Assembly: GCA_020832925.1 (NCBI GenBank)
Contig: JAJHRF010000001.1
Span: 62,001 to 126,000, forward strand
Length of the DNA stretch: 64,000 bases
Direction of reading: 5' to 3'
Origin: Desulfurococcaceae archaeon
GTDB lineage: Archaea; Thermoproteota; Thermoprotei_A; Sulfolobales; Ignisphaeraceae
Made by a program: the position numbers and the translations under genes. A model generated the notes under the pieces. It was not told the DNA's origin. It saw only the letters and a list, made by a program, of their open reading frames with translations, and ran no database searches. This document shows positions 23,859 to 60,675 of this stretch, in pieces (position 1 is the stretch's first letter; every line of letters begins with the position of its first letter).

Positions 23859-24131
23859 TTAAGTTGTTTCATCTATTAGTTTCTCAAGTTCATACATATG
23901 ATTCTTTATTAAATGGGAGACTAGTGCAGGTGCTCTTAGAAACTTCTTTTTACAGAATGGGCATATCCTTAACCCTCTATAAGGATTAAGTTTTTCAGTA
24001 GCTTTTTTAGCAGAAGAATATTTCTCGAAATAGTGTTTATCACCGAAAGAAGGTTTTAATCCAGCAAGCCATCGAGCTATAGACTTTATAACTTTATCAC
24101 GATCACGAGTATTAAGAGCCAAGATCTGCAC
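23859..24131 (-). CDS. Small C2H2 zinc-finger protein
   Basis: A 90-aa basic protein with one classical-looking finger in its C-terminal half: CPFCKKKFLRAPALVSHLIKNH, that is C-x2-C-x12-H-x4-H. The N-terminal half (IKSIARWLAGLKPSFG) has no recognised domain. Small C2H2 proteins of this kind are frequent in crenarchaea and may bind DNA or RNA. GTG start at 24131, divergent from the Lon-like protease gene. Confidence 0.7.
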   Translation of the reverse strand: MQILALNTRDRDKVIKSIARWLAGLKPSFGDKHYFEKYSSAKKATEKLNPYRGLRICPFCKKKFLRAPALVSHLIKNHMYELEKLIDETT

Positions 24132-24278
24132 CTAACTGAGATACTTTTAAGCAAGGGCTCTATTTAAATACTGATCTGATTATAGTAGTAAATATTATAA
24201 ACGAATTGTGAGCAAAGTATTTAATATATAAGTTTTTCTGTATGTTTATGGTTACACATGTGTTGGTGTGGTAACTCT

Positions 24279-26357
24279 ATGAATTTAGGTAGATACCTGC
24301 TATACCTTAGTATAGTGACTATAGTACTGCTGTTAAGTATAAACCTCAGTCTATCCCCGATTTCTAGTTACGTTCTTGATGAGTCTAGGCATGTTGTAAT
24401 AGTAGCTGTATCAACGTTACCAAATGGGAGTTACGTAGGTGTCTCGGCGGATCTGTATGTTAGAGTTACGTGTCCGGGTAAAGGTCATGTATACGTAGAG
24501 ACACTACCTTTAAGTCAGATAGATCTACAAGCATCGACGAGAGTAGCAGCTTTAGTAGCAAGTTCTTTAGCCAATATAAGTTTCAATAGCTGTGATTACT
24601 ATGCATCGATAAAAGCGGATTCACCTATTGTTGGAGGTCCTAGCGCAAGTGGTGTAACAGCTGTGGCATTTGCATCAGCACTTCTACATCTACCGTTAAA
24701 CGAATCTATAGTTATGACAGGCATGATTATGCCTGATGGAAGTATAGGCCCTGTAGGTGGACTTAAGTATAAACTTGATGCAGCTGTATCTAGAGGAGCT
24801 AAAGTTTTTCTCGTTCCTTACGGACAAGTTATTGACTATGTTTACCAAGTTCTTGAAGAGAGATGGGGGCCCGCGATAATCAGGAGAACTCTTAGAGTAC
24901 CAATAAATTTAACAGAATACGGTAAGAGCTTCGGAGTAAAAGTTTTACAAGTTGCATCAGTATACGAAGCCCTAGAAATATTCACAAACAAAGTTTTCAA
25001 AGTTGAACCTAATTACGAGTTACTGAATACGAAAATAAGCCAGCTATATGAGGTTGTAAGCCCTGTCATAGAGATATGGATAAAGGATCTGAAGAACGAG
25101 ATAGAGAATATCTCTACAAGATGTGGTGAAGTAAAGGATGATGTACTATCATACGTTAAAAATAGGTACGGGCCTCTTATATATAGCCAAATTTCTTCTG
25201 AGATCAGAGATTTAGAATCAAGATTAAGAACGGTATTGACTAGAGCTAGAGAAACCGAGAACCTAGGTAGGGTATATTCAGCTGCTTCTATGTATTTCCA
25301 AGCACTAATCTATGCCTATACAGAGTACTACCTACTTGAAGCTCTAAGAAACCCAAACATTGTATCTACGAAAATCGAGGATTTGAGGTTTAAAGCCTAC
25401 AATATTATAAATAGCCTATCCCAATGTTGCGAAAAACAGTTAGATATAGCAAAACTATCTATAGCTATTAACGTTCTTGATAGAGTTTACGAAGCGTTGA
25501 TATATATAAACAAAACCTCTACCTTAAACGACATAATATCGATAGCTTCAACAATAGCTTACGCTGATGCAAGATTACGTACAGCTATACAGTGGGCCAA
25601 GCTTACATCGATACCTATAGAATCCAAAATCGTTGTCAAGCTTGAGGATGTAAAGTCTATGGCTACGTATATAGAGACCTTAGTTCAAAACATATATGCT
25701 TACCTAATAGCGTTATCAGAATCACAATCAATACAACTTCCATCAGAAGTTAATGAAGCTGAACAAAGGTACAACCTTATGCAGAATGTTTCTGACGATT
25801 TAAGTAAACTTGCCTTAGGTATAAGCTCTACAAGCTATATGTATCAAGCTCTAGTGAAACTATTTACGCAATCCCCTGAAGCATCCGTATATGCAATAAA
25901 TAGAACTCTATATACGAATCTAGGACCTATAGCCGATGCTATACCTGTCGACTCAGTTCTATACCTAGAGTTTGCGAAGATCTTGGTAGAGGAAATGGGA
26001 GATTACGGTTCAGGAGCTATAGCTTTAGCAAAACTTTCAATAATAATCGCTCTATATAAAACAATAGCAACAACATCTTCAGCAAGTCTTTTGCCACGTT
26101 CTTCAGAAACAAGTGTTGTTAAGTCCAGTATTTACCTTACATATACACCGTACACCGTCACATCAACACTTATCTTAATATCGAACTATACCGTAACCAC
26201 AACCATAACAACAACAAAAACGGTTATTAATACGTTAATCACGACAGTCTACGGAGAAGACATCGCTAAATACCTCTACATATCTCTAGGTTTTCTCGGA
26301 GTACTTGTAGTAATAGCGTTAGTTATGGTAATACTTATTAGTAGAAAACTTAGGTAA
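24279..26357 (+). CDS. Membrane-anchored, secreted Lon-type (S16) serine protease without an ATPase domain
   Basis: A 692-aa protein from ATG 24279, preceded by ggtgtggt; ATG 24258 would add 7 residues. It starts with a signal/anchor helix (residues ~5-27). A Lon proteolytic domain follows at ~35-220: the Ser is in VGGPSASGVTAVAF and the Lys in GPVGGLKYKLDAAV, as in the Ser-Lys dyad of Lon. There is no Walker A/B. The middle is a long helical, coiled-coil-like region. A Ser/Thr-rich segment (SNYTVTTTITTTKT) precedes the C-terminal membrane helix. The active site is predicted to face outside the cell, so it would act without ATP. Confidence 0.78.
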   Translation: MNLGRYLLYLSIVTIVLLLSINLSLSPISSYVLDESRHVVIVAVSTLPNGSYVGVSADLYVRVTCPGKGHVYVETLPLSQIDLQASTRVAALVASSLANISFNSCDYYASIKADSPIVGGPSASGVTAVAFASALLHLPLNESIVMTGMIMPDGSIGPVGGLKYKLDAAVSRGAKVFLVPYGQVIDYVYQVLEERWGPAIIRRTLRVPINLTEYGKSFGVKVLQVASVYEALEIFTNKVFKVEPNYELLNTKISQLYEVVSPVIEIWIKDLKNEIENISTRCGEVKDDVLSYVKNRYGPLIYSQISSEIRDLESRLRTVLTRARETENLGRVYSAASMYFQALIYAYTEYYLLEALRNPNIVSTKIEDLRFKAYNIINSLSQCCEKQLDIAKLSIAINVLDRVYEALIYINKTSTLNDIISIASTIAYADARLRTAIQWAKLTSIPIESKIVVKLEDVKSMATYIETLVQNIYAYLIALSESQSIQLPSEVNEAEQRYNLMQNVSDDLSKLALGISSTSYMYQALVKLFTQSPEASVYAINRTLYTNLGPIADAIPVDSVLYLEFAKILVEEMGDYGSGAIALAKLSIIIALYKTIATTSSASLLPRSSETSVVKSSIYLTYTPYTVTSTLILISNYTVTTTITTTKTVINTLITTVYGEDIAKYLYISLGFLGVLVVIALVMVILISRKLR

Positions 26358-26437
26358 TGCAGATTAAGGTCAACAGCTCTTAAATACTGCTTAAAGAGAA
26401 AACTGAAAGAGTATGTGAAGTTAATCTGGTGTTGTAA

Positions 26438-27493
26438 TTGGATAGAAAGGTAGTAATAATAGTGATAGTGTTAGGGGTAATCGCTGTAAGTGCTGTTTCA
26501 ACATTAATATTACTACGAGTAGCTAAAGGTGGTGGATGTATTTCTCAAGATAATGTCTTTATCGTTGTGTATAGATATGCAAAACCCTTGGATAATGCGT
26601 ATAAATCTTTAGCTCAAATAATGACCGAAGCACTTAAAACAAATAGTTCTGGTAAATTTAATATTGAGTTGCAACTTTGTTATGTAGAGCTCAATGATTT
26701 ACCACCAGATTTGCGAGCTAAGGTAGAACAACAATTCAAATTTTATCCGGTGTTTGGTTTGAAATCTCAAACCTTGTCTAGTGTAGATATACCTATAGTT
26801 AATATCGTGTTCGATAAGTACGGGGAGGGAATCTATATAGCTAAACCTAACATAACTTGGTATCTATACCTATATCTATCACAGTATTACGGATTCCAGT
26901 ACCTCGATATTAACGGAATTTACGCGATGATTATTACTGTTGAGAAGCCCAAGATCTACATCAATGCAACGCCTATTATAGGTTCTAAAGAAGCTAGATA
27001 TTATATCTTCGTATACGAAGATGTTGGCTGTCCTTATTGTGCAAAACTATACTATGAAGTGTTCCCAAAGATATTAGAACTTGTTAATAACGGTACTATA
27101 GCTATCCTATTGAAGAACCTCCTTGTACATGAGGAAGTATTTGAAGTTCAACGTTATCTAGTAGCGTTATATATTGCTACACGTGATAATGAGCTAATCT
27201 ATGACGTTATGGAGTTTATATATGGTTTATTATTGAAAGGATCTCAAGTTACGTTGAATCAAGTAAGGGAATACGTTATAAATAAGTATGGGAAGGATGT
27301 AGAGATCGAGAAATACCTAGAGTTGGCGGAGGGTATCATAAATCAAGAGAAAGAAGAAGCTTCTCGATATATCATTATTGGGACTCCAGGTATCATTATA
27401 TGGGATAACAAGAATAGCATAGGTATAGTTGTTATAGGATTTAAGCAAGCAGAGGATCTAATTAAATTAATAAACTTTTTAAATAAAATTTAA
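26438..27493 (+). CDS. Membrane-anchored DsbA-like thioredoxin-fold protein
   Basis: A 351-aa protein starting at TTG 26438. An N-terminal membrane helix (residues ~5-27) places the rest outside. In the second half, VYEDVGCPYCAKLYYEVFPKI has the C-P-Y-C redox motif of DsbA/DsbC-type proteins. GTPGIII near the C-terminus supplies the cis-proline of the thioredoxin fold. A role in oxidative folding or isomerisation of cysteine-containing surface proteins is inferred; the S-layer protein and the Lon-like protein are nearby candidates. Located 80 bases after the Lon-like gene. Confidence 0.75.
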   Translation: MDRKVVIIVIVLGVIAVSAVSTLILLRVAKGGGCISQDNVFIVVYRYAKPLDNAYKSLAQIMTEALKTNSSGKFNIELQLCYVELNDLPPDLRAKVEQQFKFYPVFGLKSQTLSSVDIPIVNIVFDKYGEGIYIAKPNITWYLYLYLSQYYGFQYLDINGIYAMIITVEKPKIYINATPIIGSKEARYYIFVYEDVGCPYCAKLYYEVFPKILELVNNGTIAILLKNLLVHEEVFEVQRYLVALYIATRDNELIYDVMEFIYGLLLKGSQVTLNQVREYVINKYGKDVEIEKYLELAEGIINQEKEEASRYIIIGTPGIIIWDNKNSIGIVVIGFKQAEDLIKLINFLNKI

Positions 27494-59973: not shown

Positions 59974-60675
59974 TTACTTGTCCCTACTTTTTAAGCTGTT
60001 AACAAGATTCTGAGGTATTTCAAAGAAATGTTTAGAAACTTCTATTATATAGCTAATCGATGGAAGGATGTTAGGTATGCCGAAGTCTATCGCTATAGTG
60101 TTCTTAGCTATGTTTATATCGATTTTAGTCTTTATTTCGTTATCAGCTAGTTTTTTACCTACTTCATAAGCTATCACAAACTTAGCAAACCTTCTAACAG
60201 TTTCCTCCATAGGCTTAAAGACATTGTATACCTTCCTCATGAGTTGCACAAATGTCTGTTTATCCATAAACTCGAAGTAGTACATGGTGAACAGAAACCT
60301 CAATATTCTAGCAACTAGTTTATCGTCTACAGATTTGCATAACTCTGGATCACGGCTACAAAACTCATCATAATTAGAAACACTTTTAAGAATTTCTAAG
60401 ATTTTCTCTATCTTTATCTCTACATCAAATAATTTCTCTAAAACATCTTTACTTAGTTCTTTATCTAATCCCAACCCCCACTTAGCTATAATGTAGAGAG
60501 AAGCCATATCTTTATCATAGAGATCTGGAGAAGAACTTGATCCTCTTATAGGTTCAACTCCTATCTCTTTATAACACATTTGTAGAATTTTCGTAGCTTC
60601 TTCACGCGATGTAATGTTTTCTCGGATTATTCTACTCCACGCGTTCACAAGCGCTATGATCCTTTTCCTCTTCAT
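59974..60675 (-). CDS. Conserved crenarchaeal helical protein, possibly DUF2192
   Basis: A 233-aa protein from ATG 60675 (GTG 60693 would add 6 residues). It is almost entirely alpha-helical, beginning MKRKRIIALVNAWSRIIRE, with ATKILQMCYKEIGVEPIRG and MASLYIIAKWGLGLDKELS. No catalytic motif is visible. I recall a crenarchaeal family (DUF2192) with such an N-terminus, but this is a weak memory. Divergent from the radical SAM gene. Confidence 0.5.
   Translation of the reverse strand: MKRKRIIALVNAWSRIIRENITSREEATKILQMCYKEIGVEPIRGSSSSPDLYDKDMASLYIIAKWGLGLDKELSKDVLEKLFDVEIKIEKILEILKSVSNYDEFCSRDPELCKSVDDKLVARILRFLFTMYYFEFMDKQTFVQLMRKVYNVFKPMEETVRRFAKFVIAYEVGKKLADNEIKTKIDINIAKNTIAIDFGIPNILPSISYIIEVSKHFFEIPQNLVNSLKSRDK

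Follow-up and report, generated by a model that had tools for sequence, protein, structure and literature searches.

Among the described proteins closest to the one analysed here are bacterial YlbL and SepM, both of which carry a membrane-anchored Lon proteolytic domain without an AAA+ module, judged in the available text of the two sources to lie outside the cell (PMC6051672, PMC11197336). In those same texts, YlbL is considered likely extracellular and proposed to act on membrane-bound YneA (PMC6051672), and SepM is described as cutting the signal peptide CSP-21 (PMC11197336). Archaeal LonB is also membrane-bound and has a Ser/Lys proteolytic domain, but according to the accessible part of PMC4343526 both this domain and its ATPase domain are turned towards the cytoplasm. 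A survey from 2008 counted 39 proteins with Lon_C only in 91 genomes, archaea included, and its available part describes neither a topology nor a helical domain for them (PMC2605481). Here we describe a Lon-type protease gene, and the thioredoxin gene that follows it, in a 64,000-nucleotide stretch (the window) of the draft genome of a Desulfurococcaceae archaeon (1.88 Mb, 99% complete; assembly GCA_020832925.1, contig JAJHRF010000001.1, positions 62,001 to 126,000). Little is known about protein surveillance on the outer side of the archaeal membrane, where there is no ATP to draw on.

The gene specifies an S16 (Lon) protease domain that is anchored to the membrane and lacks AAA+. Our results indicate that its product probably cuts exported polypeptides at the cell surface without ATP, as a motorless Lon-type domain that would act in the manner of YlbL and SepM. 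An earlier note on the window, made from its letters, had described such a protease next to an exported thioredoxin and read the two as an envelope protein quality-control pair; the description of the sequences stands, but the pairing is not supported.

Results

The Lon proteolytic domain

From its first ATG, the open reading frame (ORF) of the protease spans positions 24258-26357 of the forward strand (699 aa), and protease residues are numbered by this frame. An alternative start, ATG 24279, corresponds to Met8, and the 692-aa product is plausible because this ATG is preceded by GGTG at 24265-24268, which we take to be a ribosome-binding core. Lon_C was the sole Pfam match at E<=0.1 (E 2.3e-7, residues 126-188, 31 bits against a cut-off of 21.1), with no AAA family found at that threshold, in line with the Lon-type protease without AAA+ that had been read from the letters. 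The protease locus is also the sole match to PF05362 in its own genome; a control search found matches in 13 of 14 control genomes.

For comparison we used 41 sequences, the window's own and 40 relatives (45 matches reduced by identical core segments), some of which are near-copies or partial. The alignment holds 38 of them, the partial L015, L025 and L047 having been left out, and the protease tree 39; aligned rows are stop-to-stop frames, and some N-terminal segments may precede the true start. Lon_C was found in all 38 aligned rows, where no AAA family matched at E<=0.001 and the only other Pfam match at that level was ChlI, in one row. The Ser-Lys dyad is intact, with Ser129 and Lys172 kept in 41/41 sequences at a spacing of 43 residues, equal to that of the E. 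coli Lon dyad, S679/K722.

An AlphaFold2 model built on the 38-row alignment (mean predicted local distance difference test score, pLDDT, 86; predicted template modelling score, pTM, 0.80) opens with a helix over residues 10-30, followed by the Lon domain (~42-250), further helices (253-609), a disordered stretch (611-669) and a last helix (669-698). Residues 42-247 of the model matched solved Lon proteolytic domains by VIA-align (Z ~20, root-mean-square deviation, rmsd, mostly 2.4-2.9) and by Foldseek (E down to 1e-9), so that structure prediction, one of the checks proposed earlier, recovers the Lon fold.

Membrane segments, stalk and orientation

Topology was scanned by simple hydropathy with a 19-residue window. 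Hydrophobic segments at both ends of the protein, residues 14-32 and 675-693 in the window protease, are present in 37 of the 38 aligned rows (window included), and because they recur in this way, such two-ended segments on a Lon-domain protein are beyond chance. Weaker internal stretches were flagged in 23/38 rows; the one in the window protease, 586-604, lies inside a modelled helix, 583-609, and is probably not a membrane segment. Both terminal segments, the Lon domain, the conservation of the dyad and the predicted fold are thereby shown computationally.

The orientation of the chain rests on sequons, stalk and charge. N-x-S/T sequons between the anchors average 1.56 per 100 aa (range 0.65-2.96; 38 rows, window included; nine in the window protease, 1.4 per 100 aa). 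This average is sixfold that of a control made of 22 window ORFs of at least 200 aa without a predicted membrane segment (mean 0.26, maximum 1.38), not all of which need be real genes. Ser and Thr make up on average 37% (range 20-57%; 38 rows) of the 49 residues that precede the final helix, the highest 50-residue share in the control ORFs being 28%. The tail that follows this helix carries a net positive charge in 38/38 rows. These features suggest that the protease domain lies outside the cell, an orientation that we strongly infer and that makes the earlier placement of the Lon domain very probably right. The Ser/Thr stalk, 41% Ser+Thr in the window protease, is probably glycosylated, as had also been proposed.

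The twelve-helix domain

Between the protease domain and the stalk, the protein contains an all-helical domain of ~360 residues that was absent from the earlier note. Modelled alone, it forms 12 helices (pLDDT 93.5, pTM 0.92). Across the alignment the domain varies a good deal (mean column identity 31%), but the tyrosines Y93 and Y235 are invariant and A95, R162, R192, W199 and F289 nearly so (domain numbering). No Pfam family matched the domain in more than 3/38 members (best single E 4.1e-4). Most profile matches to solved sequences were either to designed TPR proteins, through a 30-residue stretch near the end of the domain (best E 6.9e-5), or to designed or coiled helices. Foldseek returned nothing convincing for the domain (best E 0.11), and the best VIA-align match was a designed protein (Z 8.6; 148 residues aligned at rmsd 5.0), which among helical bundles may reflect a common arrangement only; failed fold searches of this kind do not establish novelty of the fold. 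The domain may serve substrate binding or recognition, or assembly. The features of both genes are collected in Table 1.

Table 1. Features of the protease gene and of the adjacent thioredoxin gene (window positions)
Feature	Position	Strand	Details
Gene for a probably surface-anchored S16 (Lon) protease	24279..26357	+	692 aa from ATG 24279
N-terminal hydrophobic segment (signal peptide or N-in anchor)	24297..24353	+	Residues 14-32, hydropathy; model helix 10-30
Lon proteolytic domain	24381..25001	+	Residues ~42-248; Lon_C, VIA-align Z ~20 over 42-247
Cys72, candidate disulfide partner of Cys112	24471..24473	+	Co-presence in alignment
Cys112, candidate disulfide partner of Cys72	24591..24593	+	Co-presence in alignment
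Catalytic Ser129 (GGPSASG)	24642..24644	+	Predicted, invariant 41/41
Catalytic Lys172 (GGLKYK)	24771..24773	+	Predicted, invariant 41/41
Twelve-helix domain, without convincing solved relative	25014..26084	+	Residues 253-609, models
Ser/Thr-rich disordered stalk	26088..26261	+	Residues 611-668, 41% Ser+Thr
C-terminal transmembrane segment, then basic tail	26280..26336	+	Residues 675-693, hydropathy and model
Exported DsbA-like thioredoxin, judged not a functional partner	26438..27493	+	351 aa, TTG start

Distribution and shorter relatives

Of the 60 relative genomes, 55 hold a relative of the protease. A profile search matched 207 of 229 class genomes at E<=0.001; in 174 the match was below 1e-10 and in 33 it was weaker than that. 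Family f11 accounts for 23 of the weak matches (E 1e-7 to 6e-4), and it probably lacks the protease, because its matches in G037, G055 and G215 sit in the stalk-and-anchor end of the profile and that in G027 at 68-137. The phylum sample gave matches in 70 of 111 genomes, weak matches included, and several of those to long proteins (>700 aa) may be other Lon-domain proteins. Sixteen phylum places were fetched, yielding 15 proteins (L111 gave none) that were picked by dyad-like motifs, among which dyad conservation is not countable. Eleven of these, from other Thermoproteota classes, are short (L104-L110 and L112-L115; 253-330 aa) and consist of an N-terminal hydrophobic segment followed by the Lon domain, with no C-terminal hydrophobic segment by hydropathy and no helical domain in any of the 11; four are long (569-640 aa), and three of these have the C-terminal segment. 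From this comparison it seems either that a simpler anchored Lon domain gained the helical domain, stalk and second anchor, or that the short forms lost them. Many class genomes also hold a second, diverged copy of ~600 aa (for example G042:C1:629477-630013), which in some of them is the sole scoring copy.

Cysteines of the protease and the adjacent thioredoxin

Cys72 and Cys112 of the protease are both present in 19/41 sequences, both absent in 22/41 and single in none, and because they never occur singly they suggest a candidate disulfide. Such a bond would fit an outside location, a reading tempered by the fact that cytosolic disulfides are common in such thermophiles. The pattern requires two changes on the 39-row tree, and the simplest account of one of them is that G002 lost both cysteines together; among same-genus proteases the pair is found in 10/11, G002 having neither cysteine. 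Oxidised and reduced E. coli Lon structures are among the fold matches of the model, but the disulfide in them lies at other positions, and for that reason no shared redox switch is claimed.

The next gene, on the common strand after a gap of 80 bases, encodes an exported CPYC thioredoxin, as the earlier note had recognized. It has a single N-terminal hydrophobic segment by hydropathy (residues 6-24) and a Thioredoxin_4 domain (E 3.1e-11) with CPYC at 198-201, and its profile matches include BdbD and DsbA structures. In the 12 thioredoxin rows, C198, C201 and P317 (TPG, the putative cis-Pro loop) are invariant. An extra N-terminal region of ~150 residues contains two further cysteines, at residues 34 and 81; a relative whose row begins at the match start (L056) seems to be without both, as if they formed another disulfide. 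Neither VKOR nor the DsbB and DsbD families were found in the own genome (other oxidants were not searched), and VKOR was found in 0/18 family genomes (own included; some are 55-80% complete) and in 7/41 genomes searched. An exported CxxC thioredoxin is kept in the genus despite the VKOR count of 0/18 in the family.

Gene neighbourhoods

Relatives of the thioredoxin were found in 23 of the same 60 genomes, all 23 within the 55 that have the protease, which leaves 32/55 protease-bearing genomes without a detectable thioredoxin relative. Both genes are present in all 11 same-genus genomes (own included), and they are adjacent in two of these, the window's own (G000) and G002. In G005, which carries another thioredoxin at a further site, 25 kb separate the two genes; in G009, where both are on a single contig, the distance is 184 kb; and in the remaining seven same-genus genomes their contigs differ. 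Among 35 protease neighbourhoods, which represent slightly fewer distinct places (e.g. L035 = L084, both with almost no downstream flank), the thioredoxin stands beside the protease in the same two, and these are sisters in the protease tree (support 99/99). The constant neighbour of the thioredoxin is a GatD/asparaginase gene, which adjoins it in 7/7 same-genus loci examined with a DNA ligase gene beyond; Pfam identifies the window copies as GatD/asparaginase and ATP-dependent DNA ligase. The gatD gene was not among the shared thioredoxin neighbours in five loci outside the genus (L096-L100). Its strand relative to the thioredoxin is opposite in the window and G002 and the same in the other five. 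A rearrangement that joined two separately conserved blocks in one sub-lineage explains the adjacency, and a single event suffices because both adjacent cases are sister genomes.

Families present in at least 5 of the 35 loci were listed as neighbours of the protease. The steadiest is an upstream zinc-finger protein (11/35), followed by a protein of ~150 aa directly upstream of the protease (9/35), both confined to the family; another neighbour family, in 12 loci, has no steady place. One of the 150-aa upstream members was scanned and gave a Sin3a_C match only, below cut-off. In the window the upstream zinc-finger-like protein has 90 aa, with its best Pfam match below cut-off, and is encoded at 23859-24131 (-), on the other strand from the protease. 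Far from these genes, ARAGORN reported a tRNA-Asp at window positions 60487-60572 (+) whose anticodon, 'atc', is oddly placed (position 28), perhaps a misread intron-containing tRNA or a false match.

Discussion

We consider it likely that the protein acts as a surface protease of exported polypeptides. The chain would cross the membrane at its N-terminus, or be released there by signal peptidase, and outside the cell the Lon-type Ser/Lys proteolytic domain would fold, followed by the twelve-helix domain. The glycosylatable Ser/Thr stalk would come next, and the C-terminal transmembrane helix would tether the chain. Because the protein has no ATPase and no ATP is expected outside, its most likely substrates are exported polypeptides that can be cut without a motor to unfold them, whether they are already unfolded, flexible or recognised specifically. 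The helical domain could serve substrate recognition or assembly. The adjacent thioredoxin would be an exported thiol oxidoreductase that works independently and came to lie there through a rearrangement. Proteolytic activity, and with it envelope protein turnover or processing, is something that we only infer; a quality-control role for the protease is plausible but putative.

Several observations weigh against this reading. Support for the protease role is wholly computational. Hydropathy alone can't separate an N-in/C-in arrangement from the reverse, and the Ser+Thr share in some protease rows does not rise above the 28% reached in the control ORFs. For YlbL, the purified ectodomain did not act on casein, lysozyme or YneA (PMC6051672), which is a warning for simple assays. 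No neighbour conserved across families hints at a substrate in the 35 protease loci. Finally, the model also matches Lon-like domains of RadA in fold, and that domain of RadA is not known to be a protease. These matches would suit a non-proteolytic scaffold that has retained the Lon fold, as in RadA; against that, Ser129 and Lys172 are invariant in every sequence compared, and we regard such a scaffold as very improbable.

If the protein does cut polypeptides, the range of its substrates has to be considered. It might trim a single surface or secreted protein, or a small set of them, such as pilin-like, S-layer or binding-protein precursors, in the manner of SepM and not as a general scavenger. 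The wide conservation in the class, the large dedicated helical domain and the precedent of SepM, whose specificity is called strict in the title of a reference cited in PMC11197336 (as far as its available text goes), agree with this possibility, which we entertain tentatively; still, no conserved neighbour names a substrate, and specific processing is inseparable from turnover by sequence alone and partly overlaps the explanation that we prefer. Alternatively, the enzyme could be a catabolic exoprotease, breaking down protein from the environment so that the peptides can be taken up. Such a function has been suggested for the annotated T. gammatolerans protein, a putative extracellular archaeal serine protease that PMC2718504, in its available part, puts in peptide assimilation. 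This role seems to us quite unlikely here, since matches in most class genomes follow no obvious single way of feeding and tethering to the cell would be untypical of a bulk digestive enzyme. The pairing put forward in the earlier note, in which the thioredoxin would make or mend disulfides of exported proteins, Cys72-Cys112 included, and the protease would remove the failures, is very unlikely. Adjacency on one strand with a short gap, the exported look of both proteins, the cysteine pair in 10/11 same-genus proteases and the presence of both genes throughout the genus speak for it, but the survey of both genes, their neighbourhoods and the protease tree led us to reject it: the genes adjoin in only 2/11 same-genus genomes and 2/35 neighbourhoods, both in sister genomes, most protease-bearing genomes (32/55) have no detectable thioredoxin relative, and the thioredoxin's constant neighbour in 7 same-genus loci is gatD. 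The co-occurrence survey named beforehand as a refuting test therefore went against the pair (protease in 55/60 and thioredoxin in 23/60 relative genomes). A disulfide link between the two proteins was likewise rejected; G002 keeps the adjacency but neither cysteine, and for this reason the cysteine pair gives no support to the pairing.

A bolder extension of the surface-protease reading would make the protein a phylum-wide, general machine for ATP-independent surface proteolysis, in which the handling of substrates, done in Lon by the AAA+ ring, has passed to the twelve-helix domain, of unsolved fold. The archaeal envelope would then have a counterpart of bacterial DegP/Tsp-type proteases; we think this unlikely. 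Whatever its range, the protease makes a tractable candidate for study, as it is present in most class genomes and combines a conserved dyad with a large domain still to be explained.

The adjacent thioredoxin resembles the DsbA family in its Thioredoxin_4 domain, CPYC motif, TPG Pro317 and profile matches to BdbD and DsbA, but differs from DsbA systems in its ~150-residue N-terminal extra and in that no VKOR, DsbB or DsbD partner was found in its own genome. The protease is a candidate member of the COG1750 'archaeal serine protease' group, which is likewise archaeal and exported and has a Lon domain without AAA+. Unlike LonB, the window protease has no AAA+ and a probable outward topology, and it scored 44.1 and 38.2 bits against LonB equivalog cut-offs of 723.3 and 516.6. 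The SepM/YlbL model NF041438 gave 32.4 bits against a cut-off of 200. YlbL and SepM carry PDZ, which was found neither in the window protease at E<=0.1 nor in the 38 rows at E<=0.001; the window protease has instead a twelve-helix domain, a stalk and a C-terminal anchor after the protease domain. Anchored Lon domains without AAA+ are already known, whereas the long form with the twelve-helix domain was not met in the literature searched, a body of available texts with subscription journals mostly outside it, beyond the T. gammatolerans annotation and the Lon_C-only count. If the protein is active, the Lon fold has been recruited to motor-free proteolysis at the surface in Archaea as in Bacteria, with different accessory domains.

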